In this document: in pieces, positions 14,361-53,191 of the stretch
How the letters are laid out: the number at the start of each line of letters is the position of its first letter
How positions within the stretch are numbered: the first letter of the stretch is position 1
From: Ceratodon purpureus
Lineage: Eukaryota > Streptophyta > Bryopsida > Pseudoditrichales > Ditrichaceae
DNA length: 64,000 nt
Direction: 5' to 3'
Assembly: GCA_014871385.1 (NCBI GenBank)
Contig: CM026426.1
Span: 26,882,265-26,946,264 of the forward strand
Made by a program: the position numbers and the translations under genes
The notes under the pieces: generated by a model
Seen by the model: only the letters and a program-made list of their open reading frames with translations
Database searches by the model: none
Told to the model about the DNA's origin: nothing

Positions 14361-15466
14361 GTATGATTCCAACCTATTAACTTGTTTTCAAAATTCTTTC
14401 ATTTTATACATTAAATAATGTCTACGCAGTGTATGGCCGGGTGTAGACGTCCCTCTTTGAAGCACTACCTCGGTTGGAGCGCTGTATATGTTCTTTTTCG
14501 TGATATACATTCTGTTCAGAACAGCATACTTGTCATTTGCCAAGTACTCCCTCATAACATATCTATGTTTGTTCATTTAGAAATCGTTTACGAAGAAGCC
14601 GCTTTTAGTTATGCATAACTTCCTCTACGCAGCTGGGAAATGTTTTATCATAAGTCGTTTTTAAGTTTGCATATAATAGTGAAGAGGTTCAAATTCTGGA
14701 GTCAAGTTACATGTTCTGGACTCAGAGCTTGAGGTGTTAGGTATGCATAGAGATGGCGAGGGATTTTTTTGATTGGCTTCATGTGTTATGAAGGAACTGT
14801 TACAGTGTCATAATAAATGAAATGATGGTTGTCCGCTGTCATGTCGATTCATGAACTGCGTACATAGAGCAAATAAGTCAAACGAAATTAAGTTGTAACG
14901 ATGTCGAATGAAGTAGAAGACTTACAGAAGTTGCAAGCGTTAGAAGCCCAAATTCTAGATAACGGTTTAGGTGAAATTTGTATGTCACAAAGTGGTTCCA
15001 CGTTTACATGGGGGCTTGTGCAGTCTACTGTTTGATAGTACAATGTCCCATTTCTGCACTTTTAGTACTCATTTAATATCAGTGTTCATATGGATTTTTT
15101 GATGTTGTAGCATGTCGAATCTCTGTGTCTTGTTTTCAGTCGTCATTGCAATCTGCCATTGTCTGATCAGGTATTTTTCCACAGAAATTACACTTGAAGA
15201 TTTGAACGTTCTTAACCTGAGATTATCACTATGCATAACTGATAATATGATAGTAGCATAGTATAACTTAGTTGATCACAGTATTGTGCTCTCTTTCTCT
15301 CTGGGGTGATATGAATATGCTGAGTCAATATCTACTGAATGCTTTTTCGTGACACTCTTTACATGAACAGTGTACTCACTTCTTGATCGATGTACACTGT
15401 CATCAGTTTAAATGCCCGAGGTGGAGTTTATCCCTGATGAATTTCATTTGGTTTTAAAATGTGCAG
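14361..15466. other. Intron of CACTA-2 transposase
   Basis: The position is equivalent to the 500-bp intron of copy 1 after PYWK. A GT donor lies at 14361 and the acceptor TGTGCAG ends at 15466. The 1.1-kb sequence is AT-rich with no convincing coding content. Confidence 0.6.
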
Positions 15467-15749
15467 GATCTTCTTGTGAGAAATACGGTGGACGTGATGC
15501 CTATTGAAAAGAATATCGCCGAGAATTTAATTAAAACCTTATTTGGAGAAAAGGATACGGCAAAGGTCAAGCTGGAAATGCTGATGAAAAACATACGCCC
15601 ACATTTATGGCTTCGGCCTGTGGCAGAAGAAACGAATAAAGCGTTCATGCCTCATGCAAAGTATGTTCTTTTGAAACAGGATCGTGAGCAATTCTTGAAG
15701 ATTCTGAAGTCATTGAAGATGCCTCGCCATTACTGTAGCTCCCTATACT
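15467..15749 (+). pseudogene. CACTA-2 transposase exon, left half, cut by hAT-A
   Basis: The frame resumes directly after the acceptor with a VRNTVDVMPIEKN segment, the counterpart of RHTLDVMHVEKN in copy 1. It then runs through the LWLRP and PHAKYVLL blocks to a CSSLY motif. There it stops abruptly at the terminal repeat of hAT-A. The continuation, including the SHDY block of the DUF4218-like domain, is found in the same frame right after the other end of hAT-A at 32522. Confidence 0.85.
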
Positions 15750-15760
15750 CAGGGTTGTCA
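15742..15760 (+). repeat. hAT-A left end: target duplication and terminal inverted repeat
   Basis: CCTATACT precedes CAGGGTTGTCA. The right end is the inverse complement CAGGGTTGTTC followed by ACTATACT on the plus strand. The terminal repeat CAGGGTTGT is hAT-like (compare the CAGGG start of Ac). Seven of the eight duplicated bases match; the mismatch is the first base. Confidence 0.85.
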
Positions 15761-15775
15761 CGGTCGTCCGGGACG

Positions 15776-16090
15776 CTCGGGACGTGGGGACGTCCGCGGA
15801 CGTCCGCCAGCGCCAGGGGACGTCCTGTGACTTAGAAAAAAAAAATCACCCGCATAGGTTTCACCCCGGGGTGAAACCACATCTTCTACGCGGCGGAGGG
15901 GTTGCGGGGGAGGGTGCGGCCGTCGCCGCGGAGCGGGGGGGGCCGTCGGACGCGTCGGGAAGGGGCCGTCCCCGGCGACGGCCCCTTGCCGTCGCCGCGG
16001 TGGGGGGGGCCGTCCCCGGCGACGGCCCCTTCGACGGCCGTGACAGTCCATGATCGGACGGCCCCTCGTTGACTTACGGCCTCGACGGCC
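15776..16090 (+). promoter_or_regulatory. GC-rich array A1 upstream of hAT-A transposase
   Basis: It starts with subterminal GGACGTCC copies and continues with GGCCGTC/GACGGCC motifs in both orientations, embedded in almost pure G+C. A perfect 22-bp palindrome lies at 15857-15878 (arms GGTTTCACCCC and its complement). It precedes the TATA box of the transposase gene. Binding by the transposase or another element protein is inferred from hAT biology, where transposases bind subterminal repeats. Confidence 0.7.
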
Positions 16091-16121
16091 GTCCTTCGTT
16101 GATTTTTAGGGCTCACCCCTT

Positions 16122-16166
16122 GGCATTTCAGGGAATGAGTATAAAAGACCCCTCCTGAAAGTTGCC
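16122..16166 (+). promoter_or_regulatory. TATA box inside an inverted repeat, transposase gene
   Basis: TATAAAAG at 16140-16147 is flanked by GGCA-TTTCAGG and CCTGAAA-GTTGCC, which pair apart from a two-base gap. The start codon at 16352 is about 210 bases downstream. The same TATA-in-inverted-repeat layout recurs at the other promoters of both large elements. Confidence 0.65.
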
Positions 16167-16351
16167 ATTACACTTCTGAATTGTACTCCATGTGCTACTA
16201 GTTGCACTAATATACGTGTGTATCTGTTGCATGGTGAACGGCGGCGTTCAGAAGTGTGTTGAATTGGAGCTTCTTCGGAGGCTCTAGTTCTCTTGAGGAC
16301 GTGGTACCCCGATTTTTTGAAGTTTTTCCGGGCGATCTATCAAGTGCACCA

Positions 16352-19335
16352 ATGGCGTCTAAAAGTTACTCCCCATGGTATACCGAAGTCCATATGATCG
16401 ATGCGGAGAAGAAGAAGACTGAGATGGTTCAATGTATGCTATGCAAGAACACTTTCGCAAAGAGGATTGAGCGGATGCTCAGTCATTTGGGCTATGACAA
16501 AGTTCTAGGGGTACGGACTAGTGGAGTAGGTCGTTGCACTAATTTGTCACCCGCTATACTGTCCTTGTTCAAGAATTGCGGTGGCAAATTCCCTAACGAC
16601 TCCAGAATATTCATGTCGGAGCAGAGTACTTCCCCGGTGACTCGTGGCAATATATCCCCGAGAGTGAACACTCCCATGGATGTGGACTCATGCGCTGGAT
16701 CCCGGGTTTCTACTCCGAAGAATGAACCCGTTTTATTTGGTGAGGGTGTACCTTTCATTTCCACTTTTCCGGGGGAAGGTAGTGGACCGTTTCCTCCTTT
16801 GAAGGCAAAGAGGCAATCTACCCTTCAGGAGGCTTCGAAGAGACTCAGAGGCGGGAATGCGACAAAGCATGGGCCACATGTTTTTACGAGAACAGTATCT
16901 CGTTTAACGTGGCTCAGAGTGCCTCTTTCAAGGACGCGGTGTTGAAGACGTCCAACATGAAGAGATCATACACACCTCCATCTTACCACCATCTCCGAAC
17001 AAATTTACTAGCCCAAGCAAGGACTGATTTGGAGACTTCCTTGAATGATAGGATTTTTTCAAGTGTTAGGAAGTACGGGGGAACGTTGGCCCTGGATGGG
17101 TGGACTTCTGTAAGCAGTCGCCCTCTAATAAACGCAATGCTGGTATCTCCAGCTGGTGAGTTATTCTTGGGAGCCGTTAACACGAGTGGGAAAGAGAAGG
17201 ATGTTGTTTTCGTAGCAACCGTCATTGAGAAGTTTATCCAACAAGTTGGAGAACAGAACATCATTCAAGTATGCTACGATAATGCTCCGGTGATGGTTAA
17301 TGCCGGAAAGTTGGTCCAAGCACTCTATCCATCCATATTTGTCCAAGGATGTGCTGCCCATGCGATGGACCTTTTGTTGGAGGATTGGAGTAAGATGAAG
17401 TGGGTGAAGGAGCTCCTAGATCGGGCTAAGAACTTGGTTAAGTTCATAAAGATAAGGCAAATGCCACTCTCCGTATTTCGAAAGCACGAGGCAAAACTTA
17501 GCTTGCTGATGCCTGGTCAGACTAGGTTTGCATCGCACTACATTATGATTTTGCGTCTACTGAAGGTTCGAGGAGCATTGGAGCAGAGCGTTGTGGATCC
17601 TGACTGGAGAAACTACGAAACGAAGAAGACCTTATCTGCCCGTGACAAAGCGAAGATCTCACGCGATGTTAAGAGGGTTGTCTTGGATGACGTTTTCTGG
17701 GAGCAATGTGCAAACTTCAAGTGGATGACGAGTCCCGTTGTATATGCCCTACGAGAGTTTGATGCGAAGGAATCGGCATTGGGTAAAGCCTACGTCGTTC
17801 TCCGCAACCTTGAGAAGCATGTTCTCTCTTTACGCCATGAGCCCTTCAAACTAGACTCAGACAATGCTGATTACTGCGAGGACTCATTTTACGAGCGTAA
17901 AGCCATGATTAAATCACCCTTACAGTGTGCTGCTGCGCTTCTAAACCCTTATCTTATTGACGATGAGGACCTTTGCAATGATACTGATGCAATGGCATCC
18001 GCGAAGGAGGTCTTGTTGTCGATGGATCCTCCGACACTGAAGGAAGTGGTCATAGAAGAGTTCTTTGCATTTCGTGAAGCTTATCCTCCGTTTCGTGACG
18101 TACGTGAATCCTCTAAGTCACAACTGCCGCCTTCTGGTTGGTGGGATATATACGGATCCGCTGGTAAATTCATTTCCCCAATTGCAAAAAGGATTTTAGC
18201 TCAGCCCCTGTCTTCTTCTTCATGCGAGCGGAATTGGAGTAGCTACTCCTTTGTCCACGACAGGAAGCGAAACCGTTTACTTCCGGAGAGGGCTAATGAC
18301 CTCGTGTTTGTGTATACAAATTCCAAGATAATTTCCCAGTCCAAGTTGAGTGCCTTAGGCAGGTTCTACGGGGAGTTGGAGGGGAAGGAGGATCCGAAGG
18401 CTGTGGAAACCGAGGATGTTGACTACTCTAGTGAGTCTGATGTTGATCTACCCTTCGATGATCTATCAATTGACCCCCCCATCGAGGCCCCAGTCGACGA
18501 CCTCGAGGTGTCTCCGAAAGGAAAATCCCGTTGTTCTCCTGCGCCAATGGAGCGTGCTTTCGAGTATGATGATGTCGAAGAAGAAGGTACCAACGAGGAG
18601 GATACGATTCATCTTTCCTCTTTTTTGAATGGAGACGGTTTATTAAACAGTGATAAGATTCTCCAGGGAGGATCCTCTCATACTACCGTGGATTTGGTCA
18701 TACCAAAGAAAGAGGGAGACCCCACCATTGATACTTCTAAGGTTGTTTCTCCAAACTTCAACCGCCTAAAGGACGATATGGTTCCACCCACTACAAAGGA
18801 GGATGTGCCCGTACCCGTATCGGGTGCATCTCGCACATTGTTTGGAACTGCAAAGACTAGGGTCCAAGTTGGTGGGTTCGAATCGTCCACGAGGTTGGTT
18901 GAGTTGTCTAAAAAAATGAAGGCAGATGCTAAGGCTGCTGAAGTAGTGGAGAAATGTAGGAAGAGATTGGTCCGAACCCTACAAGCGGACCCGGGCCTCC
19001 TCTCTACTGATGACGGACTTCCAATTGGGAATCTCTTTGGGCCGAAGTTGGCTTTGGGAAAACCGGACATATTTCCTGAGAAACCCCCTGCTAGAGCCAC
19101 GTCCAAGCGAAAGGCTGTAGACAAGACTCAGAAGGTGTTGGCTTTCAATCGTGGTAGGCCAAAAACTCCTTTGGATGACCCGAATGGCCCAAAGAAATTC
19201 CTGAACCCATTCGAGTCAAAGAAGAAGACTAAGGCGAGGGTGAAGAAGGTACGCGAGAGCGATGGCGATGACAAATACGATTCTTCCGGTCCTAGTGGGG
19301 CCGAAGTGAAGGACGACAGCGATTATGTGGCCTGA
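16352..19335 (+). CDS. hAT transposase of hAT-A, with BED-like finger and long tail; one frame break
   Basis: The N-terminus (from ATG 16352) has a BED-like C-x2-C...H...C finger (CMLCKNTF). After a linker come the RNase-H-like parts: LDGWTS (first Asp), GCAAHAMDLLLEDW and CYDNAP (second Asp), a DUF659-type region, and the hAT dimerisation motif SSCERNWSSYSFVHDRKRNRL. About 290 further residues form an Asp/Glu-rich then Lys-rich tail, absent from ordinary hAT proteins but also present in hAT-B. The finger part is open in one frame (to 16945) and the rest in another (from 16909, recognisable from about 16860 by likeness to hAT-B). A frameshift or undetected short intron therefore lies near 16850. 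The gene converges on the RING-like gene. Confidence 0.88.
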
Positions 19336-19799
19336 TTGGGCACGATAGTTAGAAGGCGGCATTTCCAGTGCACCACCCTAGAATGCCACTCTTTTATGAA
19401 TGTCCATTTCTAGAAACCATTATCATATTATATCTCATTTAAGCGGTGGTGCTTGCCTCTTCAATATTGTCCTCCACGTTGTGTACTTATTTTTACTTTG
19501 ATTGTACTTCTCGCAATTTCTTTCTCGTAATGAATGTACACAATCTACATATGAAGTTCGATGCATCTAAGTACTAACAATTCTTTCAACACAAATGCAA
19601 CTCCGATAAAACATAAATGAAATTGTATTAAAACCAGAGGTAATTTTTGCAAGTACATATAGAAGTAGTGTAAAGTCCATACACCCGGCTCCGCAACCAA
19701 TATATATATATATATACTGCTCTAAATACGACTATCACCCAGTGTATTGTCACATTAACCGTAGTAATGCGGGTACCATGTCCAACGAAAATACTGTAC
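19336..19799. other. Intergenic, between convergent genes of hAT-A
   Basis: AT-rich 3' region shared by the transposase and the RING-like gene; it includes a short TA repeat at about 19699-19716. No gene is seen. Confidence 0.5.
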
Positions 19800-22700
19800 T
19801 CAACGTCCATTGTTTGCATTTGACCTCCGAGTTTGGCGTCGCTGGCTTGGATGTGTAATCGTACCCTCCGAGCGATATTCTTCTTCCACGCGATCCAAAG
19901 AACGACGATTATCTTCCCCCCATTCGGGATCATCTTCATAAGGGTTGTCTCGATTGCGCTTCTTGGAATTCTTCCCGTTCCACAACTCCTTTGCCTTCTC
20001 AATCTTGGCTACTGTTTCTTGCACAATCTTCTCAATCCTATTGCGTGACCAACGAGAGGAATTATCCTCCGCACGAAGTGCCCTCCTCCAGTCGTTAACT
20101 ATTTTCTGAAGAGCATCGTCAAACTTCTTAATGATCACCCAGTAGTCTAGGTCCGAATATTTGAAGGATTCCTCTGTAAAAGTGCGACGATGCTGAATGG
20201 CTTCTTCTAGTTTGGCCAATACAAGTGCCGTACCAACCAGGGTTCTGTCATACATCTTGTACTCATCAAGTTGGCCATAGTCCCGTTCTACTTCTCTTCT
20301 CTTACCGTCGGCATCTACCACAACTTCCGGTTTTGGAAACCGGAAGAAGCGATTGCGATGTATACTCCAATGTCCACCGAAGTTCCTACAAAAAAATTCT
20401 CGGTCCTTGGCATCCGGAATTTCACTTGCCCTCATCTCCACCTCATAGTCGTGTGTCATCCATGAAAGATCGTCCAATCGGCATCGTTAGCCGTAGATAG
20501 TTGGTGAGTCATTGTCTCCGGGTTCCAAGCCAGTGATTTGCCCCAATCATAATAATTCAGCTCTTTCTTAGGTAGTTGGTCTAGTGGTAAATTCCACCGA
20601 TCAAACTCATGCCCAGGCGGCATCACGTGTTGTAGTCCCAGCATCTCGTAAAAACGTGAACTAATTGGGGAGCGACACATAACACACTGTTTGTTGTTTA
20701 AAGCAGCCTTTGCGATGCAGGTTATGTGGAACTTGTGATTACAATTTCCCATCTCAAAGGCCCCTTCCGGCCCAAAATATTGTTGACAGATGGGACACGT
20801 TTCCTTCGAATATTCCTCCGACGGTTTGCGGGTATGGATAACCACACGTTTCGATTCATCCAAATGAGATGATAGTACATCGTACGGCATCCACCCCTCC
20901 TCGACCTCTAGCGCCCAGTCAATGACTCCTTCTTTATTTTTGGAACTATGTAATGTGCGCTCCATCATTTCTCCTACATCGCGCCATATCGTGATTTTTG
21001 TAGCATCCTCGCCGCCCTTGGCTGCTGCCTCGTTATACTTCTGTAAAGATGATTGGATAGCTTCTTCGACATCCATAGAAGTAATTGCACATTTCTTCAT
21101 ATCCTGTTGTGCTCTAGAGACTATTGTCTCCTTATCTCGTAGTTTGTGGACCCAACCAAGCCATGATAATGCCCTTATGGAAGATGGTGTATCATCTACC
21201 ATCTTTATGGTGGTCTTCAGCCTTTCCAGTTCCGTACGGGCCTCGTTTCTTTTTCTTCTAGCCACCTCCAAATCCCGTAAAAGAATGTCTAATTCTATTG
21301 AATCATCCATTGGCCCTTTTCCTCTATCCTCATGTCCTGGTGTTGCTTGGCTAGAGCCAATGTCCAATGGAACTGGACTAGATGTCATTTTAGACTTCTG
21401 AGACGCCATCCCTTGTGTGGCCCCATCTCCACTTTTATTTGAAAATTTAGAAAGGCCAAGGTCATCGGAATCCTCACCATCGCTCAGTACTTCAATGATA
21501 CGAACCTTTCCTTCCACCTTCACCACTTCCTTCTTCACCGTAGGCTTCACTTCTTTTGTTTTGTTTTTCTCCTTCTCTACCGGGTGGTAGATTTTGCACT
21601 CTTCCAATTGTGCATAAAAATTCATCTTCACATGGTCCAACCTTCTTGTCAAACTCTTGATTTGTTCCGTTGCATCCATTAAATCCTTACTCAGGGCCAC
21701 GTTCTCTTCGCCTAACTTCACACGGTCTTCCAGAAGAGGCTTAATGGAAGATGCCAAAGTGTCAAAGCCAAGGGCACCCTGTATCATGCCCGGAGTGATA
21801 CTTCCAAATGCATGAGCCATATTTATGAGACTTGGTGCCATAGCGCCTAATACGGAAGCCCCTTCTTTCAGGGTGTGTGCAATCTTCAACACATTATGAA
21901 TTTGTTGCACTTCCTCTGTGGTTTTTCTTGCAGCGTCTCCCTCTGTGGTATTCTCTAAGCCCCCACGCTGTTCATCAGAGGACACCTCCGTCAATTTGAT
22001 GCTAAAATCTAGTAACTCCTTCAATGATTCATTGTTTGGCATCGACTTCACCAGCTCCATAATCTCCGAAATGGAATGAACTGCATCCTTTGTGCTATCC
22101 TCTTCGGTAGGCACTTGTACTATTGCCAAGGAACTTGGACCATCATCCACTGAACGAGGGTTGGAGCATCCGGCTTCCGCAGCCGTAAGATGTGTTGAGC
22201 AGTCATTGTCCACCTCCACTTCCACCTCATCTACGGCTGCCTTGCCCTTTGTATTGTTGGAAGATTTCACCGTGATTTCCAGGTCTGCTCTAGGAATAGT
22301 AGGGACATTAGTTTCTGTGGCAACGGGGAACATCGTAGCAATCACATTGGCAATGGCAACGGGCTTCTTTTCCTCTGGACGATGCGGAGTTTCATTCTGT
22401 AATTTTTTTACTTCATTCTTCGGAAAGCTCTTTAGATGTGGCCACTGCCGCTTTCGGAACTCCGCTACGACCTTCTTTGCTTCCAGAGGATCGATCAGAT
22501 ATAAATCCGGAATGTCTCTTACCATCCATCCAATTTTCAACGGCCTGTCTTTCGTAGTGGGGTACGTACACCAACTAATCTTCCGCTTCAATATTAGCTC
22601 TCCATATACCATACTGCAAATGGTATAATTGAAATGGCCTTTGCTGGGCTTCCGTTGCCCAAACATAGTAGTCCAGACTTCATATGCCCGATGCAAGAAA

Positions 22701-22969
22701 TGGTCATCCATGCATGACTAGGGCTTGCAACTAAAAGTCCGTGTGTTCATCTCGTGTTCTTCTCGGGGCCACAACTTGTCAATGTGATTCATCTTCACAT
22801 ACTTCTTGCACTCCATGAAAGTCCAGAAAATCTCCCCTACAGATTCCCAGCCTTCTTCTGCTACAATGTTTTTGTTGTCTAAGATCTCCCAAGAAAAGTT
22901 GTGGCACATTCCCTTCGGCCTGTTCCTCTTCCCGGTTCCTCCAATCTCATCATGTTCCGGATCCGCCAT
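19800..22969 (-). CDS. N-domain/RING-like protein of hAT-A (about 1,050 codons), broken
   Basis: Starting at 22969, the first 130 or so residues form a domain shared with the proteins at 41080 and 27455: a GW.. block, CKKYVKMNHIDKLWP, then YEVW...MVYGELILKRKISW. A long middle follows, with coiled-coil-like and Lys/Glu segments. A RING-H2-like finger lies near 20660-20800 (CPIC-x14-C-x-H-x2-FH-x2-C...C-x2-C), followed by SPISSRFYEMLGL and a C-terminal domain with GHWSI. The arrangement matches the intact hAT-B protein. An in-frame TAG near 22718 and a frameshift near 20480 interrupt it. A ubiquitin-ligase role is possible from the RING but unproven. Its promoter is GC array A2, directly upstream. 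Confidence 0.75.
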
Positions 22970-23189
22970 AGTAACCTCGTTTTAAACAAAAACGATATGG
23001 TTTTGTTTTAAAGAAAACAAGGAGTTGATAAATGACGTTTACAAAATAACGAATACAGAAAATTCAAAAACTCCCCCCCCCACAATAAAAAGGGACCCCC
23101 ATCTCCTCACCCCCACGTACCAACAAGCTCCCAAGTGAATTGGGAAACTGTAGCAATAGGAGAGGGACTATTGAGGAGAGTGAAGTGAG

Positions 23190-23765
23190 GAAGTGGGGGA
23201 CGGCCGTCGCCATATATGGCGACGGCCCCCAACCCTACGGCCGTCCCCCCGAGCCTAGTGCCGTCGCCCCCCGATCCTACGGCCGCGGCCAATGGCCGTC
23301 GTCCCGAACCTGACGACGGCCGTTGGGGGACGTCGGGTCGGGGGCCACGGCGACGGCCGCGGAGGCCCGTGCCTCCGCGGCCGTCCGATCGGGCCGTGTC
23401 CTCGGCGACGGCCGTCCGATGAAGGCCGTCGCCGAGGGGACGGCCTTGGAGACGGCCCCCGACGGGGCGGCTTGCGGCCCTCCGATCGCGGCCGTCCCCG
23501 CGGCCGTCGCCGTCCGATGGCGGCCGACCGCGCGGGGACGGCCGCGTAGACGGCCTTGGAGACGGCCGCGGGGACGGCACCGTCGGCGACAGCTTGCGGC
23601 CGTCCGATCGGGGCCGTCTCCAAGGCGACGGTCGTTCGATCACGGCCGCGATCGAAGGGCCGTCCCCGCGGACGGGCCCTCGCGGAGACGGCCCACGGCC
23701 GTGGAAACGGCCCCCGACCGTGGGGACGAGGCCGTCGCGGCCGCGGGAAATTTCCCTCCCCCCCC
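23190..23765 (-). promoter_or_regulatory. GC-rich array A2 upstream of the RING-like gene
   Basis: About 570 bases of almost continuous GGCCGTC/GACGGCC motifs with interspersed CCGCGG, CCCCGA and GATCGG. It lies at the 5' side of the minus-strand RING-like gene, with the TATA palindrome at its gene-proximal edge. The many long open frames across it on both strands are artefacts of the composition. Confidence 0.7.
23202..23227 (-). promoter_or_regulatory. 26-bp perfect palindrome with central ATATAT
   Basis: The half-site GGCCGTCGCCATA is followed by its exact inverse complement, leaving CATATATG in the middle. It contains the array motif GGCCGTC on both sides of the TATA-like core. It lies about 235 bases before the start codon of the RING-like gene. 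On the minus strand the leader then has a run of G followed by GTTTTTGAATTTTC (about 23054-23081), matched in the kinase-like gene leader. Confidence 0.7.
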
Positions 23766-26385
23766 CTTTTTTAAAATACAAATGAAAAAAACATATAATG
23801 CTACATCTTCCGACCACATATTACACTAAACCTGTTAATTTCTTTCACCAATTAAAATGAGAACAGCAGTTAATGTAAACATGAATTAAAATACTTCATG
23901 GTATGCAAAGCATCTAAATTCTTCAACGAGTCATTATTCCGTATGCTCCACTGAAGTTAATGTATGTGTCATTTATTCGAATCATTATTTCTGTTGTTTC
24001 TATCGTACGCATTTCAAGGTGGTCTATCATCGCACTCCAAAAGTTCCTTGCAGAAATCGAACTCATCTAAACTTGTTTCAGAAATTGTAATCTAAATAGT
24101 TCTCCGTCTTCTTATTCTCCGCTTTGAATTTTTGTTTTTTTAAATACATAAGTGCTTCTATTATACTTTCATTAAACGGCTTCATATTATCAATTTAATT
24201 CGAGTTACCATCTCTTTATGTACTTTTAACGTTCCTCCCTCTATACAATTTCCACTTTCGAATATTGTTTTCATTTACCTCTTCTTTATTTTCCTCTATG
24301 TTTATTCCCCTCTAGTTTATGCCCTTTTTTTAACGTCTAATTTGTCTAATTTAGAACTTCAACCCTCGAAGCTCCATAAATGTCATTTCGTGAATTTCTT
24401 CCTTTCATATCGTTTTGAACGTTCGTATTTCGATTTATTTCCTCCATGACCCATGTTAAAGTATATTTTACTAATTCGACCACTATTCCACCATTTTACT
24501 AATTCTACCCTACTGCTTTAGTTTTGAATTATATTCTACTAGATGTACCCTACTGCTTTAGTTTTTATTGAGTACTGTACCCCTCTTTCATATATACGTT
24601 TTCAACTCTCCATATATCACTACATCATGGCCGACTTCTATTTCTTGTAATAATTATAATTTCGATACTTTCCCTCTCAAACTATTCTTTATTCGTCTAT
24701 TATTTTGATGGTTCACTCATCTGTTTACTTATGAATATACTTCTACTTCACAGCTTTCCCCAAGTGTATCGATACGTTATTTCTTAATATTACACCCGTC
24801 GTCGTTATAGTTCTAATATTCATATCCGTCCTCAAACCTCTTGTTCTTTGTGTTGTTCATTAATTTAATTAATTACTATTCCGAAACAATACCACCCTAC
24901 TAAACATCGTTCATCAGTATTTTTAGTATTCCAATAATATATATATATATTTCTAAAATTATGTCCCGTCAATATACGTTTTCGTGTAATAATTTTATTT
25001 CTGTACTTGTAGCTCCAAGTATTTCACGTCGTGACTTTTTAATTTTTCCTTGATACAGTATAGTCTATGTGTCTCTATGAATTATCGTGCTTGTTAAATT
25101 CTCTCATTGTGTCATTAGTAAGTGATTACTTTTGTACGTATGTACTATACATTGTACAAGTTAGAATCCAATTCCATATTTATATTTACGTTAAAGTGTA
25201 TATGAATAAACATATATTTGTATAGAGTATAATGTAAATGTGTTACCTAATTTATTTATTTTATTTCATATAAGTTGCAAGGTACAACTCAATTCTGGGC
25301 GTTGGAAACTAGAATTGTTTATAAAAACAATGATTTCAATTTTAGTCGTTCACAAATTGGCATTATTCAGTGACGGTTGAATGTTTTCTGTTTTAATTTT
25401 GTTTTTTACTATTATCCCTTCCTCATCTCATAATGTGAGCTAGTGATTTTTTTTTTTTTTTTTAATGATAACACAGTACTACGGTATGGAAGTTTGTAAA
25501 ATAAAAGACATTAAAGAGCAAGGAGAGTTTTTATATTTCATATAACTCTAAACCAGCCATGAGAAATTAGAATTGGACCATTTGTTATGAAAACAATGAT
25601 TTGAGTTTTATTCCTCCCATGAATTGCATAATCCCAAGAGAATTGAATGTTTGTTTTGGTTTATTTCACTTTATTATTATCTCCAGTTTCTCTCATAATC
25701 TAAACTACTATTTATGTTTTTATTTTTGATTCTACCATAATACTAAAGAACGAGAGTATGTAAAATTAAAGAAATAAAACTGGGGTAAATCATTCCATTA
25801 AAAATTAGAGTCAAAGAATCTATATAAATATTTTCATTGTATACCACTATTCGAGAAGAAATTGGATCTATATTTCTAAGAGATTACCCTAAACCGTAAA
25901 CCGGTGAAATATAAATGCAAATCTCTTAACCATTTAAACGTAAGGTGCACCGCATGAAAAACCAAGTGTGTACATCAATTTATGCGTTGAATTACTTCTA
26001 GTGCATTCTCTCCGCGATGTTCCTCTTATCATATTGTTGTTGACATTTACTCTTTTGATTCGTTAGTATAAAATGTTAATTCATTACCGTATGCTAAAAC
26101 ATGAGTAACTTCGTTTCTTTAAATGACAATTGGTAAAAACTGTTTTAGTGTACCCACAATGTTTACGGTTCTTTCCATTCAATAGGATATATATTCTTCT
26201 TCATAAACGTGTTCACATTATTTGTAGATCCTAGGGGGTTATCCACCCCCAAAGAACCAAAATATCACATAGTTCATTGGATCCCAATTTCAAACGTCGA
26301 CCCCACCTCCCCGATCACAGGATCTTCAGGACATTCCCCACAATATCCGGGATATGTCTGAATTTTCCATTTGTAGGAGATATGC
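23766..26385. other. AT-rich non-coding centre of hAT-A
   Basis: About 2.6 kb of strongly AT-rich sequence with no credible gene, lying between GC arrays A2 and A3. A unit ending in TACCCTACTGCTTTAGTTTT occurs twice (about 24503-24526 and 24546-24569). A TA run lies at 24938-24950 and a T run at 25447-25464. The contrast with the flanking GC arrays is extreme. hAT-B has a T-rich centre in a comparable position. Confidence 0.6.
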
Positions 26386-26388
26386 TGT

Positions 26389-26416
26389 CCAAACAATCCC
26401 AAGTGGGATTGTTTGG
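26389..26416. repeat. Perfect 13-bp inverted repeat at the border of array A3
   Basis: CCAAACAATCCCA, two spacer bases, then its exact inverse complement TGGGATTGTTTGG. It sits where the AT-rich centre gives way to a G-rich strand and array A3. It may be a hairpin or protein-binding site; the function is unknown. Confidence 0.6.
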
Positions 26417-26499
26417 GACAAGAAGGAGGGGGGAGAGTAAGGGAGGAGAGGGGGGAGGAGAGGAGAGAAAACACAAGGGGAGGGGAGTTCCTTCGACCC

Positions 26500-27080
26500 T
26501 CCCCCCCCCCCGGCCGTCCCCGGGGACGGCCACGGCCGACCCCGCGTGGACGGCCGTCGCCCACGGCCGTCGGATCTTCTCCGACGAGAAGATCCTACGG
26601 CTGCGGACGACGGCCGTCCACGCGGGGACGGCCGCGGCCGACCCCGCGTGGACGGCCGTCGTCGACACCGCGGTCGCAGCCCCCCGACCCCGGGGTCGGC
26701 CGCGGCCGTCCCCGCGGGGTCGGACAAGGCCGTCCCCGGGGACGGCCACGGCCGACCCCGCGGTCGGAAGGTCCGTCCGCGTGGACGGCCGTGGCCGACC
26801 GCGGGGTGGAGCACGGCCGTCCCCGCGGGGTCGGACAAGGCCGTCCCCGCGGGGTTCAGCACGTCCGTCCCCGGGGACGCCCGTCGACGTGGTCGGCCGT
26901 CCCGACCGCGGGGCGGCGGTCCACCGACGCACCCTTTGGGGAGCGGTCGCGCCCGCACGACCGGTCGCGGCCGCGATCGTGGACGGCCGCGACCGCTCCC
27001 GCGACGGACCAGTTACGGCCGTTGGATTCTCCATTCCCCGAGATCCAACGGCCGTAGGGGGGCCGTCGTTTGACCTAACT
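26500..27080 (+). promoter_or_regulatory. GC-rich array A3 upstream of the N-domain gene
   Basis: About 580 bases of GGCCGTCC, CCGCGG and GACGGCC motifs, same type as A1, A2 and A4. A GATCTTC...GAAGATC inverted unit lies around 26572-26594. The array ends shortly before the TATA-like stem at 27097-27119 (arms GGGCCAGC and GCTGGCCC, loop ATAAATG). Confidence 0.7.
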
Positions 27081-27454
27081 GGCTGCCTAGGGGTTCGGGC
27101 CAGCATAAATGGCTGGCCCTTCTTCCTTTTTCTTCACTTGGGTGCTCGTGCTACATGTGCTGGATTTACTTCAGCTCAGTTGCGTTCCTCCAAGCTTTTA
27201 CTACTTCCCCACGGGTTATCGTGGGATTGTGTTTAGGGTTGTCAGCACCGTTTGTTGGTTATTATGAAACCAACAAACTAGTGCTTCATACCTACGGTTT
27301 CTAGGTAGGAATTTGGGGTTTTGTTTTGGTCCTTATGCACTAGATATATACGAGATTAAATCAACTTTTATACGGTGGGGAGAAGTTACAGGCATTGTTA
27401 CGAGGTTGGTACGATACACGGTATTCACAGCTACTCGCTTACCGGACTTTCGCC

Positions 27455-28957
27455 ATGCCTCGTAACGACCGGGGAGGACCCTCCACTCCTAAAAGGAAAC
27501 ACCCCTTGGATCCATACGCTACGAATGACCCTGATTGTGTAGCAGAGATTGGATGGGAGGGGGAACCATCACCATGGCGGATGGTAACTTGCAAGGAATA
27601 TGTCAAGATGAAGCACCTCATGAAGTTGATCCCAGTACATCTACGTACCGAGGTTGCGGAGAAACAAGCAACACGGGGAGAGATCAAGATCGACAATTGT
27701 GAAAGTAATCATTTCAAAATTCGATACAAGGAGGTTTTTCGAGCAGCACAAATCCAGAACTCCCGACCTCATATTATGTTGTATTCGAATATGGCAATGG
27801 TGTGGGCGGAGATAGTCTTACATAAGAGGGTTGACTGGACCACAGTCTTGGGCCTGAGGACAGATAAAATGAACGGAGACAACATGGATCTTGTAACAGA
27901 CTGGAGTGGACATAGCGATTGTCCCCCATTACATATTTCAAACCGTCGGAGTCCACCGGCACAAGATGCAGGAATACAAACTCTAGCCATCGAATATAAT
28001 GATGAGGAACAGGAGAGACGTCGTTTAAGCTATGATGATGAAGACAACTATCGAGGGCGTCGCTCAAACGAAAATCCCAGGAATCGCAGAGGGCATCGTG
28101 CCAGAGAGTCATCACGTACCAACCATGAGGAGTATGGACAAAGCTCTGCCCACGGGGGACACCGTTCGCTAGATCGTCAGGACATGGGACCCCACGAACA
28201 AGGCTATGGCCACGGGGAACCGGAAGGAGCTGATTTACCCTTTGACTTTGCAGATGGTGCGTATGGACCCTATGGGGGACGACCGTGGCCAGATTATGCA
28301 ACGGGATCAAGATACTTTAGTAACTATGACGACGGCTGGTCGGAAATACCGAGTCCTCCAAGGAGTGCTAGTCCGCGCCATCGAACACCTCCGAGAGAGG
28401 TACCTCACGGTTATTCCCCTGATCGCGAAGAAGATACGCAGAGACTGGGACGTGATGATTACGCAACTCCCCCTCCATACCGCGGATATGGTGGTCATGG
28501 TACCCCATCTGCCCTATTTGCAGAAGATGATTACAGATCATCTTCGCGGACTCCGCCTGGAATATTTCCTCCACCTCTAGGTTATCACACCGACGGTACT
28601 GATCACAATAGCGGGGACAACCGCAACGTACTTCATCGCGATGACAGAGTACCACCTCCTCCTTTTGGATACCCTCCCGGTCGAGTTGTAAGAGATAGCT
28701 ATTTTGAGGAAGAACTAGAGTTGGAGCGAACAAGGCAAAATTACGTACTACAGATGGAGAATCATGCGTTTCACCTTAGACGGGATAATCGAAGATTGAT
28801 GGAGGAGAGAGAGAGACTTCTGAGAGCCTCCACAAATTCTGCAAGGCACGGGCCACAAGAAACGTATGATCGGGGAGGTCCAAGCGAACTCCCCAATGAT
28901 GGGAACTATTATCATCCATATGACTACAATGGATTAGGGTGGAGGGGAGACTATTAG
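27455..28957 (+). CDS. N-domain protein of hAT-A with long disordered tail
   Basis: About 500 residues from ATG 27455. The first 150 residues carry the same unnamed domain as the RING-like proteins: CKEYVKMKHLMKLIP, a KIRYKEVFRAAQ segment, then MVWAEIVLHKRVDW. After this comes a long low-complexity region rich in Arg, Gly, Tyr, Asp, Pro and Ser (about residues 210-430). A helical, probably coiled-coil C-terminus follows (EEELELERTRQNYVLQMEN, RLMEERERLL). There is no RING finger. It is open throughout, the only undamaged gene in hAT-A. It has its own array, A3, and converges on the kinase-like gene. It could be a nucleic-acid-binding or scaffold protein; function unknown. Confidence 0.75.
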   Translation: MPRNDRGGPSTPKRKHPLDPYATNDPDCVAEIGWEGEPSPWRMVTCKEYVKMKHLMKLIPVHLRTEVAEKQATRGEIKIDNCESNHFKIRYKEVFRAAQIQNSRPHIMLYSNMAMVWAEIVLHKRVDWTTVLGLRTDKMNGDNMDLVTDWSGHSDCPPLHISNRRSPPAQDAGIQTLAIEYNDEEQERRRLSYDDEDNYRGRRSNENPRNRRGHRARESSRTNHEEYGQSSAHGGHRSLDRQDMGPHEQGYGHGEPEGADLPFDFADGAYGPYGGRPWPDYATGSRYFSNYDDGWSEIPSPPRSASPRHRTPPREVPHGYSPDREEDTQRLGRDDYATPPPYRGYGGHGTPSALFAEDDYRSSSRTPPGIFPPPLGYHTDGTDHNSGDNRNVLHRDDRVPPPPFGYPPGRVVRDSYFEEELELERTRQNYVLQMENHAFHLRRDNRRLMEERERLLRASTNSARHGPQETYDRGGPSELPNDGNYYHPYDYNGLGWRGDY

Positions 28958-29907
28958 AATGGGGTGCATGGTAGTACTTTCTACAGCATCGGAGCGTACC
29001 GAGACTTTAATGTGGACTTCGCATATTACAAATTTACAACGGAAAGTAAAAGATGCAAGCATAGTATGTACGTAGTTTGCAGTTTTGTAGATGGAGGTTT
29101 AAAATGTACGGACTCAAGAATACAGGCACGTGCGACATTTTGCAAGTAGAATAGATATAATTAGTGTTTTAGAGTGTAGTTGTGTTATCTTTTATATTGT
29201 AGTTGTCTTCACATTTGAAAGGAATTTACCTTTTTAATATTCTTGTAGCCGTATTCGAAGTGCACATTACTATCAATATCACTATTTTTAAAATGACAAC
29301 TTCCTATTGACATGGGTTACGAGTCTACAGCTTACGAGCACTAGAATATAATGAATCTCAAGACAAGTATGCAAAATAATTTTCAATTATTTTTTTGGCT
29401 AAATTAATAAGAATATCGTGAATGATATTTTTTGATGGATGCATATTTATATCTAAGGTATTTGTTTGTACAGGGGATTATGAGCAATCACGTTTTGCGG
29501 CCCTTACGCTTTCGTCTTCACGAAAAGAACTTGAGTATACGCTTGCCAATATTTGTAAGAATAAAAATTACAAAGCATAACGGTTACAATTCACATATCG
29601 CATAATTTTCATAATTAGAATTGAGAGTATCGACTTTTAGCTAGATGTGTGGAGCCAATCCGTTTTCCTCATAATACAAGGGGTAGAAATAGACCAATCT
29701 TAGTACAGAGACCATATTTGAACCAAATGCAAGTAAACTTTATAAACAAAATATTGACCGGTGTACAGAAATTGAGATTCCAACATCTCATAATAATATA
29801 GAGTGTAAATATGACTATTCACTACTAAGAGCTATGCCCGCCGTCCGGTAACAAAAAAAACATTATGCTTTTATAGGAATACGGAAAGGTAGATATGTAA
29901 CTCCATA
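28958..29907. other. AT-rich intergenic region between convergent genes
   Basis: This separates the 3' ends of the N-domain gene and the kinase-like gene. It is AT-rich with only short, unsupported frames. No gene is seen. Confidence 0.5.
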
Positions 29908-31383
29908 TCAGTAACCCTCGCGATAGTGCTCGATGGGAGTGGGCCAGTTGTATGTATCTCTGAAACGGTTAATAAGATGTCCGAGTCCACCAATAGTTCC
30001 TCTGTTGTTTTGGCAAACTCTCTCAAGGTAACCTTCGAAAACCATTGCGAGTTCTCCGATATTCTGGAAATGGCGTGTTTCTACTGGCTCGGCTTCGTGG
30101 TATGCCGTGCACATGTTGCCCCTGTTGATCTTCGCCGCTATCTTCGCAGCTGCGAAATCCTCCGATGCAACCGTCAAATCTGGAATGATTTGAATATCTT
30201 GGTTTTCCTTGTGTACGTATACCACGCGAGGATCCACCCAGTATCGCCTCCTCATAGTCTCCTCCTTCTGATGGACACTCTAAAAAACCCAAGGCGACCT
30301 TCTGTTCTCTAGTGTCTTCGTCATCAAGCCCCAATCACAAACCCCGATGTAGATCTTGGACTCATCTTCCGGAAAGTGAAGTAGGATGTTGTCCGGTGAC
30401 AAGTCATTGTGGAGGTAACCGTATTTGTGTACGGCATCTATGATGTTACACAATGCCCAAGCAAGCTCTGTACGCTTACTTCGGAAAAGTTGGAGACGCT
30501 TCCCTAGAATCGGACTGTCCTCTGCATTTTCTCTGAAGATGTAGTCGATGGGGAGGTCACCCGCGGCCTCGTCGTCTCTCTATAGCATGGCTCGAAGGGT
30601 CCCACCGTTCCACCAGTACATGAATCCCACATGTTCTAACTGATGAATGGCCATGAAGCGGATGACACCAGGATGGGGAATCCTTATCGCAAGAGATTCA
30701 TTGTTGTGGTCCACACGTGCCAAATCCGGCCTCATAGACCAATTGAGCGGCCGTTTCTCAGCAAACTCCCAGTACGGTGGGATTTGCGGGTTTCCTTCGA
30801 TACGAACCCTACGTATGGTAGCATAACCACCTCTCTGGACTTCCTTGTCCAAGTAATAGAAAACTGCAAAGTCTGCCAAGATAGTCAAATGCCGTTTACG
30901 TAAGTCAGCCGCCGTCTCCATCCCAATCGGAGAATTCCACCAAGTAATAGACGCCCGTCGATGCTTTCTTGAGCTATGGGGCGCCATTAGTCTCGTGAAG
31001 CAATCTGCCTTTGCAATAGTATCCTTGAAGGCCTGGACTCCCCCCCTTTGCGCCTTTGCATACTTAGTAATAACCTCTTTAGCATTCCATAACGCATCGT
31101 GTGCACGTTGTGACACGAAATGATCGTAACCAGGCTTCTGTGTATCCGAATGCCAGCACGGATCCATCAAACGATCCCTAATCTTTGTCTCCATCTCTGA
31201 CTTGAATTTCCAGGGCCCATCTTCCTCATACCGAACGTAACCACTATTCAATGAAACAAGGGTATTCTCCTGGTAAAATTCCACGATGAATGCCACAATA
31301 TAATCCTTGCAACGTAAGCTCGGCATGTCATCGAATTTGTTCGCCCATTCCCCCACATTCTTCTGCTTCTTATTCTTCGGCAT
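29908..31383 (-). CDS. Protein-kinase-like protein of hAT-A, with two in-frame TAG codons
   Basis: Read from ATG 31383, one frame runs for about 490 codons apart from TAG at about 30582 and about 30266. Parts in order: an N-terminal region of about 190 residues shared with the hAT-B protein; a Gly-rich loop (RGGYATIRRVRI); a probable VAIK-like Lys (FAEK); IPHPGVIRFMAI; WWNGGTLR; the catalytic loop YLHNDLSPDNILLHF with HxD and Asn; the metal-binding triad as CDWG; then WVDPRVV at the APE position. The fold is eukaryotic-kinase-like, with DWG in place of DFG. A4 is its promoter array. Substrates are unknown. The TAG codons make this copy inactive unless read through. Confidence 0.75.
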
Positions 31384-31642
31384 CGTGGAAAGCCTTCAAG
31401 GCTTCAAGAAATCGTAACCGCAACTCCAAAGAAACCGTCAATTCCCACAATGATTAATAAGAGCAATACAAATCCAAAGGGTTTTGAAAAAAACCGTTTA
31501 AAAATTCGAAAAGTCCCCCCCCTCCCCAAATGAAGGACCCCTTTCCTCCCGGTGAGAACGACCAACGGAGAAGGATCAAGTCCCCCACCAGTAGCAATCA
31601 GCCTCACTCGAAAAGGGAGAAAAAAGGTAAAAAATGAAGAGG

Positions 31643-31669
31643 CGGCTTCCCCTTATATAGGGGAAGCCG
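31643..31669 (-). promoter_or_regulatory. TATA box in a perfect stem, kinase-like gene of hAT-A
   Basis: Arms CGGCTTCCCCT and AGGGGAAGCCG (11 bp each, perfect) enclose TATAT. The stem lies about 270 bases before the start codon at 31383. The leader then carries a G run followed by ACTTTTCGAATTTTTAAAC on the minus strand, like that of the RING-like gene. Confidence 0.7.
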
Positions 31670-32400
31670 ACCTCGCGGCCGTCCCCACGGCCGTCCCCAC
31701 GGCCGTCCCCGCGGCCGTCCGATCGGGCGCGACTCCGCCCGAAGGCGCCGGCCGTCCGATCGGACGGCCGCGTCGGGCGATGGCGCCGCGTGGCCGTCTC
31801 CGCGGTCGGCCCCGTCTGCACGCGGTCGGCCACGCGGACGGCCGTGTCTCCCCGCGGTCGCCCACGCGGACGGCCGCGGGATCGGACGGCCCTCCGCGGC
31901 GGCCATGGTCGCCCGCGGAGGGCCGTCCGATCCAGTGGCCGTCCCCGCCGCCGACCGCGGAGACGGCCGCCCGATCGGACGGCCCACCCAGGCCGACCAT
32001 GGCTGCCGCGGGCCGTCCGATCCCGCGGCCGTCGCCGTTGCCGACCGCGGGGACGGCCACGGGGACGGCCGCGGGATCGGACGGCCCGCGGTCGGCCGCG
32101 CCGATCGAGCGGTCCCCAATGGCCTGCGCCGGGATCGATCCGGGCCGTCGGATCCCGCGGCCGTCCCCGAGGCCGTCCCCGCGGTCGGCCGCGGCGACGG
32201 CCGTGGGATCCGACGGCCCTGGAGGGACGCCCACATCCGACGGCCCGCGATGTGCCAGCACGGCCGCATCTTGGCCGTCGGATCGACGTGCAGCCGTCTG
32301 CAACGACCCCGCGGCCGTCTCCGCGGCCGTCCCCGCGGCCGTCCCCGCGAACGGACGGCCGAGATGAGGCGTGGTGGCGGGATCGGCCGATCGGACGGCT
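31670..32400 (-). promoter_or_regulatory. GC-rich array A4 upstream of the kinase-like gene
   Basis: About 730 bases of repeated GCGGCCGTCC, CCGCGG and GGGATCGGACGG units, the longest array in hAT-A. It abuts the subterminal GGACGTCC copies and the right terminal repeat. It serves the minus-strand kinase-like gene by position. Confidence 0.7.
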
Positions 32401-32510
32401 GGGGAATGTTTTTACCCCTCCGGGGTCGCAAAATTATTACCGCGGCGTAATTCTCGAGCGTCGGGGACGCCACGTCCGGGACGGGGGACGTCCGGGTCGG
32501 ACGTCTATTT

Positions 32511-32529
32511 GAACAACCCTGACTATACT
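32511..32529 (-). repeat. hAT-A right end: terminal inverted repeat and target duplication
   Basis: ACAACCCTG ends at 32521 and is followed by ACTATACT, the right copy of the duplicated target. The CACTA frame resumes at once. Confidence 0.85.
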
Positions 32530-33145
32530 CGAAAATCAGTAAAGGTAAATTGACAGGGTTAAAATCGCATGACTACCTCGTTCTTTTACACGATATTCTG
32601 CCTCTATGTCTTAGGAATATTGGGGATCCTACGACTACCGCGGCCATAGTCCGATTAAGTAGGAAATTTCGCAAAATATGTTCCAAATCTGTCGATGTGG
32701 ATACTAGGGAGATTCTCTTTGAAAAATGTGCAGAAATACTGTGTTTGTTGGAGAAAGAATTCCCCCCAGTTTTCTTTGACATCATGGTCCATCTGACAAA
32801 ACACTTAGTACAAAAGCTATTCCTGTGTGGCCTAATACATGTGAGATGGATGTACCCATTTGAAAGGTATCTCAAGACTTTGAAGGTGTTCGTCTAAAAC
32901 TTGGCTAAGCCAAAGGGATGTATGGCAAAAGGCTATGAGGTAGAAGAGGCTTGCGGTTCTGTGGGGGAATTTGTGTCAGAGAATGTTGGTTCCTTTAGAA
33001 GATTGTGGGACTCTGTTGAAGACCCTATCCAGAACAACGTAGAACTTGAACGACGTCCGAAACGGCGTGTTTTGGATTTGGTGATGCGTCATCAAATGCG
33101 TTCCTTCTTTCTGGAAAATGCGGACATACTGGAGCCTTACCGACT
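32522..33145 (+). pseudogene. CACTA-2 transposase exon, right half
   Basis: It continues the DUF4218-like domain cut at 15749: a SHDYLVLLHDILP block, FFDIMVHLTKHL, GLIHVRWMYPFERYLKTLK, then KPKGCMAKGY, and ends at a GTAAGC donor. One in-frame TAA lies at about 32895, just after the LK.FV position where copy 1 reads LKSLVRNK. Reading across the two flanks of hAT-A with one target copy gives an unbroken family match, which proves the insertion. Confidence 0.85.
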
Positions 33146-39534: not shown

Positions 39535-39786
39535 GACGTGGAGACCCCGTCGTCAGTCTCGCGCGCGCGCGGTGATCGCGCCCGATTACCCTCGCCCGAT
39601 CAGGGTCGCCCGTGCCCGTCGCACGCTCGCTGTGATCGCGCCCGTCGTCAGTCTCGCGCGCGCACAGTGAGCGCGCCCGATTACCCTCGCCCGATCACGG
39701 TCCCGCACGCCCGTAGCTCAGGAATAACGTGCTCGCGCCCGTACCAGCCTGCGCGCGCCCACACTGTCGGCCCCGTGAGTATAAAT
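39535..39786 (+). promoter_or_regulatory. GC-rich array B1 with TATA box
   Basis: Repeated TCGCGCCCG and CGCGCGC motifs. A unit beginning CGTCGTCAGTCTCGCGCGCG and continuing through CGATTACCCTCGCCCGATCA occurs twice, at about 39548 and 39643. TATAAAT lies at 39780-39786. The leader that follows (to about 39885) is clearly similar to that of the RING-like gene at 40799-40903. Confidence 0.65.
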
Positions 39787-39907
39787 TGCCACCCTCCTCC
39801 ACTTATTTCGCACCCCCCCACTTTGTGCATTTTGCCTTCAACAGCCCAAGGGTAGCTGATTGCTTAGTGCTACGGTGGGTTCCTCAACATTCGCTGTACC
39901 GTCCAAC

Positions 39908-40312
39908 ATGAATTCCAACGCCTGCAATTGCCAACAAATCAAGTCGATTATGAGTTTAACGAATGGCGCCACTCCACCGGGCACTGCACAGCGAACGGAC
40001 ACAGTTATTTGGTCAAAGCTGGAACGACTCCGTCAACTGATTGACTTCTTCGAGGATTGGATCTCTCGCCGTGACAAATTGGTGGCCTACGCAGAGAATG
40101 GACGCCCTCTGCCTCCAACCACTGAAGAGCAGTTGGCAACCCAAGCGACTGTCGAAGAACTTGACTGTGAGATTGGCGATCTCATCAAAGAAATGAAGAA
40201 GGAGATGGCAATACTTTGTGTCCCCAATATTGTCTCTAGTGCTCAAACGAACCATTTCGAGACGCACTTGAAAGACCTAGAGGACCGGTACCTAGAGTGC
40301 ATGGCACTGTAA
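39908..40312 (+). CDS. Small helical protein of hAT-B, 134 residues
   Basis: ATG 39908 is the first start after the TATA box and leader. The protein has a CNC motif near its start, then long amphipathic helices (SKLERLRQLIDFFEDWISRR, LDCEIGDLIKEMKKEM, LKDLEDRYLE), suggesting a coiled-coil or dimerising protein. I do not recognise a family, and hAT-A has no equivalent. Its promoter and leader are paralogous to those of the next gene, so the unit probably arose by duplication of a promoter segment. Function unknown. Confidence 0.6.
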   Translation: MNSNACNCQQIKSIMSLTNGATPPGTAQRTDTVIWSKLERLRQLIDFFEDWISRRDKLVAYAENGRPLPPTTEEQLATQATVEELDCEIGDLIKEMKKEMAILCVPNIVSSAQTNHFETHLKDLEDRYLECMAL

Positions 40313-40424
40313 TCGACATTACAATGAAGTGATACATTTTCAAAATAAATAAAGTATTTTTTTTAAACTCTGAATTTGCAAGTTCTCTTTGGTTACTCTG
40401 ATTTTTAACAGTGTTCTAGTTTGT

Positions 40425-40810
40425 GGTGGCGCCGGTCCTGAACTAGTGCTCGCGCCCGTCCATCCAGCGTTGGCGCCCGACGGTCGCGCCCGTGCAATCC
40501 GGATCGCGCCCGACTAATATCCGCGCGCCCGCATCGACGTCCGCGCGCGCGCCCCTTCGGTACTCGGATGACGCCCGCGCGCGCTTGACGAAGACCGGGT
40601 CGCTACCCGCTCGCGCGCGGTAAAACCCGCTCGCGCCCGTCATATACCCGCCACTGAACCGCTCGCGCCCGTTGATATCCGCGCGGGTGCGGAGGTATAC
40701 ACGGCCGAAACCCCGCCGTCGGCGCCTGCGCGCGCCCGTCGGGTTTCCGCTCGCGCCCGTAGCAGGTTGTTTGCGCCCGTTCCCTGGCGCCCGTGACTAT
40801 AAAAGGGCGA
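40425..40810 (+). promoter_or_regulatory. GC-rich array B2 with TATA box, RING-like gene
   Basis: Dense CGCGCCCG/CTCGCGCCCGT motifs. TATAAAA at 40799-40804 sits between CGCCC (40788-40792) and GGGCG (40805-40809). The leader to about 40903 matches that of the small gene almost base for base around TTGCCTTCAACAGCCC and GGTAGCTGATTGC, at an offset of 1,020 bases. Confidence 0.7.
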
Positions 40811-44720: not shown

Positions 44721-44747
44721 ACTCCAACAACATCACACAAATAAATT

Positions 44748-45430: not shown

Positions 45431-45579
45431 ATGCCTATTTGTTTACTTTTTTTTCTTTTTTTTTCTTTTGGGTACTCCAATCTCTCATACTAATGTATGG
45501 TATTTCAGTGTAGTCCATTCTCTCCCTTAAGCTTTTTTTTTTTTTTTTTTTCTGAACTTACGACTTTTAAACTTCATTG

Positions 45580-53190: not shown

Positions 53191-53191
53191 G

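Follow-up and report, generated by a model that had tools for sequence, protein, structure and literature searches.

A hAT transposon of the moss Ceratodon purpureus that moves with RING, N-domain and kinase-like genes, and a second, distant family with a similar gene set

A window of 64,000 nucleotides from the moss Ceratodon purpureus (C6:26882265-26946264 in the searched assembly of 362,488,568 bp, where C6 measures 110,524,308 bp) contains a transposon of the hAT superfamily, referred to here as the family-1 element. Our results show a mobile unit that comprises CAGGGTTGT ends, a hAT transposase and three additional genes, is flanked by 8-bp target duplications and has recently amplified in C. 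purpureus. They also show a second hAT family, family 2, which has a transposase, an N-domain/RING-like gene and a kinase gene at 27-34% identity to those of family 1, together with a different fourth gene. Positions given without a contig name are those of the window. The window contig is probably the V sex chromosome of Ceratodon, the "V" being taken from the locus tag KC19_VG055000 of a related protein described below.

The window copy of family 1 spans 15750..32521 (+; 16,772 bp), and its ends and duplication were read directly. The left terminal inverted repeat, CAGGGTTGT (15750..15758, +), is followed by subterminal GGACGTCC sites and has its counterpart in ACAACCCTG (32513..32521, -), which ends at 32521. 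The flanking target duplications, CCTATACT (15742..15749, +) and ACTATACT (32522..32529, +), match at 7 of 8 positions. The insertion lies in a CACTA/TNP2-like exon, whose left part occupies 15458..15749 (+) and whose right part, with DUF4218, occupies 32530..32897 (+); once the flanks are joined over a single copy of the duplication, the frame is open again. The first-pass annotation had proposed from these ends, the 7/8 duplication and the precise interruption of the exon that the whole 16.8 kb moved as a unit, and all of these features were seen.

The same unit is present elsewhere in the genome. For each query of the genome, only the 40 best-scored candidates were scored, and copies were drawn from these. 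The transposase-end search gave 438 candidates, and from the 40 scored, ten copies were fetched at ~20 kb each; for ten further copies, all picked because a kinase lies where the spacing predicts it, only the ends were fetched. Both exact ends were found in 15 of these 20 non-window copies, and a sixteenth has both ends with one change in the left end. Perfect 8-bp duplications flank 14 of the 20, and all 14 differ from each other. Seven belong to copies fetched at length, including C6:97593401 (CTTACATC at both flanks; altered left end and an insertion), and seven to the end-only copies, the others of which show one 7/8 match, one 6/8 match and one N; at C6:87826134 the right end is N. In eight of the ten copies fetched at length, the four genes are all present with unchanged order and orientation, while C4:765944 is interrupted within the transposase and C11:1353018 runs into N. 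No transposase-only element between family-1 ends was seen among the 20 non-window copies, all of them best-scored candidates. A comparison of copies had been named in the first-pass annotation as the way to tell a single four-gene element from a transposase joined by later insertions; the copies, with the same ends and their own 8-bp duplications, support the single element. The short terminal inverted repeats (9-bp CAGGGTTGT ends in six young copies), the 8-bp duplications (perfect in 14 of 20 copies of family 1 and 6 of 10 of family 2) and a transposase with a C-terminal dimerisation region, found by Pfam in both families, are as expected of hAT elements.

All four open reading frames (ORFs) are intact (994, 1056, 500 and 491 amino acids, aa) in three of the ten copies fetched at length, and at least one gene is broken or missing in the other seven. 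Pairwise differences are 0.17-0.36% among six complete young copies and 1.45-1.57% between these six and the window copy, which is older than they are. Its four genes are as the first-pass annotation described them, except that three (transposase, RING and kinase) are broken and only ORF500 is open, a point absent from that description. Ratios of nonsynonymous to synonymous change (dN/dS), given here as plain estimates, were obtained among the window copy, C6:97593401 and C12:12578358, and were 0.38-0.45 for the transposase, 0.40-0.56 for RING, 0.28-0.39 for ORF500 and 0.42-0.48 for the kinase; pooled over young pairs, the first three were 0.31, 0.30 and 0.42, respectively.

The four genes form two convergent pairs separated by an AT-rich spacer (23800..26250). 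The transposase gene (16352..19335, +; frame change at ~16831 in the window copy, 994 aa in intact copies) matches DUF659 (1.3e-35) and Dimer_Tnp_hAT (2.2e-9) in Pfam, both above the cut-off. The N-domain and RING gene (19803..22969, -) has an in-frame TAG at 22718-22720 and a frame change at ~20477 in the window copy, and encodes 1056 aa when intact. Its product scores 32.1 bits against zf-RING_2 (cut-off, 27.3), and the eight RING-type zinc ligands are present in family 1, as read by eye in the C12 copy. The protein collection contains two relatives with open frames (1058 and 1061 aa; 80% and 65% identity), and in it the relative P0002 scores 26.5 against zf-RING_2, just under the cut-off. 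ORF500, an N-domain protein (27455..28957, +; open in the window copy; 500 aa, or ORF537 by stop-to-stop length), matched no Pfam family. Homology to the N-terminus of the RING protein and of that protein's relatives (BLASTP E 4e-11 to 1e-14) covers its first 130 residues, and its N-domain is also related to the family-2 RING-like protein (BLASTP E 1e-17). A profile comparison of the kinase N-terminus with the N-domain gave no match, and the predicted structure of the N-domain (predicted local distance difference test score, pLDDT, of 43) was too poor for a structure search.

The kinase-like gene (29908..31383, -; in-frame TAGs at 30580-30582 and 30280-30282 in the window copy, 491 aa intact) has 61 relatives in the protein collection. 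In 31 sequences, comprising 30 of these relatives and the window protein, K210, E229, D327, N332 and D350 are invariant, and by eye we assigned them the roles of the VAIK-type Lys, helix-C Glu, catalytic Asp, Asn and DFG-type Asp. The protein has a bilobal kinase fold, its Pfam Pkinase score is under the cut-off and the His of the HND motif is Gln in the relative P0003. A kinase fold with its catalytic residues kept is thus supported; phosphotransfer would be a putative activity. The kinase-like fold and RING domain of the first-pass annotation are upheld, the latter by a zf-RING_2 score above the cut-off. The roles of the kinase, RING and N-domain proteins are predicted ones, and ubiquitin ligation by the RING protein is putative. 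P0003, a kinase relative (95% identity, 126 member sequences), is C. purpureus KC19_VG055000, a transposon gene deposited as an ordinary hypothetical protein. Another relative, P0024, is filed under a "Bacilli bacterium" metagenome-assembled genome (IMZ40_01335). A profile scan for the kinase gave 19 pattern stretches in prokaryotic genome contigs and 52 in viral contigs, with none confirmed in either; hence P0024 is likely to be plant DNA in a bacterial bin, and a prokaryotic or viral origin of the kinase finds no support in the genome and viral contig collections. A tblastn search of plasmids with the transposase gave no match.

Linkage of the genes was also seen in the scored candidate places. 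Among 40 kinase places (the best 40 of 221), 21 are downstream of a transposase-end place and correctly oriented; the distance is 15.2-15.8 kb for 19 of these and 32 and 39 kb for the other two. Among 40 RING places (the best 40 of 223), 25 are separated by 7.3-7.7 kb from a transposase end and 25 by 7.9-9.6 kb from a kinase; one or both of these partners were found for 33. Within the best-40 lists, seven RING places lack a transposase partner and 15 transposase places lack a RING partner; some of these places, among them C6:97593401 and C11:1353018, hold a RING gene when read. In the protein collection, the longest contig is 7321 bp for both the transposase relative P0066 (76%) and the RING relative P0002 (65%), and 27,639 bp for both the transposase relative P0084 (49%) and the kinase relative P0038 (48%). 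We read each pair as linked in relatives, a common contig being inferred from equal size, which among thousands of pairs is open to chance.

The second gene set, at 41-53 kb of the window, was found by tblastn with relatives of the family-1 proteins. Identity between the families is 34% for the transposase, 27% for the kinase, 31% for the RING part and 30% for the N-domain. The window copy of family 2 is a left-truncated element (39546..53324, +; right end ..GACAACCATG), with a 134-aa ORF (39908..40312, +), an N-domain and RING-like gene (41080..43635, +), a transposase with DUF659 and Dimer_Tnp_hAT (46722..50167, +; two overlapping frames, with the change between 49139 and 49295) and a kinase-like gene of 522 aa (51021..52589, +). 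A direct scan of the window for family-2 ends found none, and a relaxed scan gave 90 pairs, the best 25 of which were low-complexity or unconvincing; the left end is absent from this copy, which comparison with a copy on C1 shows to be truncated at ~39,546. The C1 copy runs from CAGAGTTGTCATAATGGACGG to ..ATGACAACCATG over 14,475 bp, with CTCGTCGT at both flanks as a perfect duplication, and its ORFs of 134, 850 (N-domain/RING-like), 1148 (transposase) and 522 aa (kinase) are intact and all on one strand. The ends of nine further copies gave five perfect duplications, one 7/8 match and three cases with one end only in the stretch, that is, perfect duplications in 6 of 10 copies. Family-2 ends read CATGGTTGTCATAATGGAC or CAGAGTTGTCATAATGGAC, and over the first 11 end bases the two families agree at 10. 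Candidates at first look numbered 314 for the kinase, 345 for the RING-like gene and 597 for the transposase, and the best 40 of each were scored. Within these best-40 lists, RING and kinase lie 9.9-11.2 kb apart in 12 places, transposase and kinase lie 4.29-4.37 kb apart in 13, and 19 of 40 kinases have a partner. The intact family-2 kinase keeps HND and DWG, which read YND and EWG in the window copy. An ORF just right of the family-2 end (54493-55533, -; 346 aa, open, no Pfam match) was considered as a family-2 N-domain gene and rejected, as it reached only E 0.11 and lies outside the right end.

GC-rich arrays lie upstream of each of the four family-1 genes and of four family-2 ORFs. In family 1 they consist of the GACGGCC/GGCCGTC motif: A1 is terminal and upstream of the transposase (15750..16110, +), A2 is upstream of the RING gene (23195..23750, -), A3 of ORF500 (26505..27085, +), and A4 of the kinase gene, near the right end (31660..32440, -). 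On the plus strand of the window, 45 of 46 GGCCGTC sites fall inside the 1-kb bins of the four arrays; on both strands, 82 of 84 sites of the motif are in the arrays. Family 2 has seven arrays with a GCGCCCG motif within 39535..53195 (+), at 39535-39790, 40440-40800, 44050-44720, 45575-45830, 46160-46475, 50500-50842 and 52790-53195, three of which are not directly ahead of a gene. Counted with its reverse complement, GACGGCC occurs 82-105 times per copy in seven family-1 copies and once in the C1 family-2 copy, while GCGCCCG occurs 67 times in the latter and once or twice per family-1 copy. Family-2 array bounds, TATA boxes and G-run leaders were read by eye. For seven of the eight gene-linked arrays, a TATA-like site is found close to the array edge that faces the gene, 130-352 bp upstream of the ATG. 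It had been claimed that each family-1 gene is preceded by an array, a TATA box and a G-run leader. The arrays are indeed present before all four, but a clear TATA box accompanies only the transposase and the kinase; ORF500 has a weaker one (CATAAA) and RING only CCATATATGG. The G-run leader is clear ahead of RING and the kinase and weak ahead of ORF500, with none seen ahead of the transposase. Within A1, query positions 243-332 gave repeated matches to a unit of ~88 bp in many copies, and the number of tandem units of this size in A1 appears to vary from copy to copy. Between two of the family-2 arrays, at 44800-45400, tandem CT/AT-rich repeats of ~190-200 bp were noted by eye.

We consider it reasonably probable that a multi-gene hAT unit, control by the arrays and action of the kinase and RING proteins in trans together explain these observations. 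The transposase would cut and paste the element by acting on its ends and on the subterminal GGACGTCC sites. Ahead of the genes, the arrays specific to each family would be element-owned promoters, and a putative reader, an element-encoded DNA-binding protein such as the transposase or an N-domain protein, would switch the genes on together. The kinase and RING proteins may act in trans for the element, and their likeliest target for modification would be either the complex of transposase and N-domain protein or a host factor responsible for silencing the element. A more specific proposal, which we put forward tentatively, is that a moss hAT lineage may have its own regulatory system, in which the arrays would be co-regulated promoters read by N-domain/transposase proteins, the kinase and RING proteins would disarm silencing or tune transposition, and motif and reader would change together. 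This last step is suggested because families 1 and 2 have different motifs; arrays before genes in both families, each with its own motif, are the pattern that a co-changing DNA-binding protein would be expected to leave.

Several observations weigh against parts of this explanation. In family 2, each of the two copies read lacks one RING-type ligand, a different one in each, and the RING-like protein of the window copy has no Pfam match; ubiquitin ligation may therefore not be a shared function. No counterpart of ORF500 was found in family 2 except for the N-domain of the RING-like gene, so that not all four genes are constant. As the copies came from the best 40 candidates and ten of the 20 were picked for kinase distance, solo-transposase relatives are possible among the rest. 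The kinase dN/dS pooled over young pairs was 0.71, a value that we regard as inflated because copies with shifted kinase frames were included.

It is also possible that the RING, N-domain and kinase genes were picked up from the host by chance, in the manner of Pack-type elements, and are carried unused. Plant DNA transposons often capture host fragments, and the accessory genes are broken in several copies. However, the ORFs are intronless and full-length and are intact in three of ten copies, dN/dS is below 1 for all four genes, the same three gene types recur in the second family at 27-34% identity, and diverged relatives of each accessory gene are found in the protein collection; passenger capture is thus very unlikely. 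The two convergent pairs (15.7-23.8 kb and 26.3-32.5 kb) resemble each other, with arrays at the outer edges of each and an AT-rich spacer between them, as if separate elements had been joined once. Such a joining could be the first origin of the family, but for the present element it fails, since eight of ten copies contain the two pairs in order, with most or all of the spacer, and a single perfect duplication surrounds the whole in seven of those eight; we regard it as highly improbable. The arrays themselves may be non-regulatory: they could be no more than subterminal transposase sites that have expanded in tandem, or GC-rich promoters that no specific protein reads. Plant DNA transposons commonly have subterminal repeat arrays, and the apparent variation of A1 by ~88-bp tandem units would fit them. 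Against this, two family-1 and at least four family-2 arrays lie far from the ends, several of these adjoin genes and TATA-like sites, and each family has its own motif, which makes a non-regulatory role rather unlikely.

Ac is known to encode only its transposase, unlike the moss element, whose gene set is unusual for a hAT transposon. Accessory genes are known from the plant DNA transposons En/Spm (TnpA/TnpD), MuDR (mudrA/mudrB) and VANDAL (VANC), which belong to other superfamilies and carry other proteins, with no known kinase or RING. VANC counters silencing by binding element-specific repeats and is the nearest functional parallel to the arrays. Alpha-kinases are a different kinase class from the protein-kinase fold found in the moss element. 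Lanisha, a DNA transposon lineage, has reportedly been described from Ceratodon. In PMC12730594, Lanisha has an EnSpm-like transposase and falls in a clade with 2-5-bp duplications; the moss element, with 8-bp duplications and a DUF659/hAT transposase, differs from EnSpm/CMC elements on both counts. The same paper describes fungal TET-positive hAT7 transposons, which like the moss element hold a second enzyme gene within hAT ends, but which are fungal and have 7-bp duplications and a TET/JBP dioxygenase, as opposed to 8 bp and RING, kinase and N-domain genes; no TET/JBP family was among the Pfam matches of the element proteins. It also describes IS3EU transposons with an alpha-kinase and TET/JBP, in which, as in the moss element, a kinase gene is a regular member in opposite orientation to the transposase, although IS3EU is another superfamily with 6-bp duplications (PMC12730594). 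For enzyme cargo, these IS3EU elements and the fungal hAT7 are the closest parallels to the moss element. By the definition given in a 2018 survey, plant hATs such as Ac have a hAT transposase, short ends and 4-8-bp duplications, as does the moss element; that survey reports no Physcomitrella hAT (PMC6027215). ToxhAT/ToxTA, a 14-kb transposon with other genes that was first filed as a hAT, is unlike the moss element in being reclassified as likely Tc1/Mariner, with a TA duplication, non-autonomous and single-copy, according to PMC12506042. DNA transposons with accessory enzymes, hAT elements included, are already known. The first-pass annotation had held that no described element has this gene set; no hAT with RING and protein kinase is among the literature titles listed, yet hAT7 and IS3EU, with their enzyme genes, narrow the claim (PMC12730594). 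A plant hAT lineage whose transposase, N-domain/RING and protein-kinase genes are kept across two very different families is likewise not among the literature matches listed.

Plant hAT elements can hence be multi-gene entities that encode kinase-like and RING proteins of their own and bear arrays on the promoter side of genes, and they have hundreds of candidate places in one moss genome. A haploid moss with intact young copies offers a tractable case for transposon use of protein turnover or phosphorylation against silencing. On a sex chromosome, transposon genes of this kind can also pass for ordinary genes in an annotation, and gene counts there may include them.

Some further features concern the window copy and its surroundings. 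About 584 bp of the spacer (24501-25084) is present in the window copy and in C6:97593401 and absent from seven other copies read there (eight with C11:1353018), and its presence marks a subfamily. C-to-T changes in the window copy affect 27 of 2196 CG, 17 of 1254 CHG and 34 of 4833 CHH sites, a slight deamination bias towards CG and CHG over CHH. Contig C128:6482-7983 matches the window insertion together with 50 bp of its left flank at 100% identity, and C128 also carries family-2 RING-like and transposase genes; it is perhaps an unplaced duplicate of the window locus. Outside both elements, an ORF at 62329-63123 (-) has Pre-SET and SET domains and is histone methyltransferase-like.

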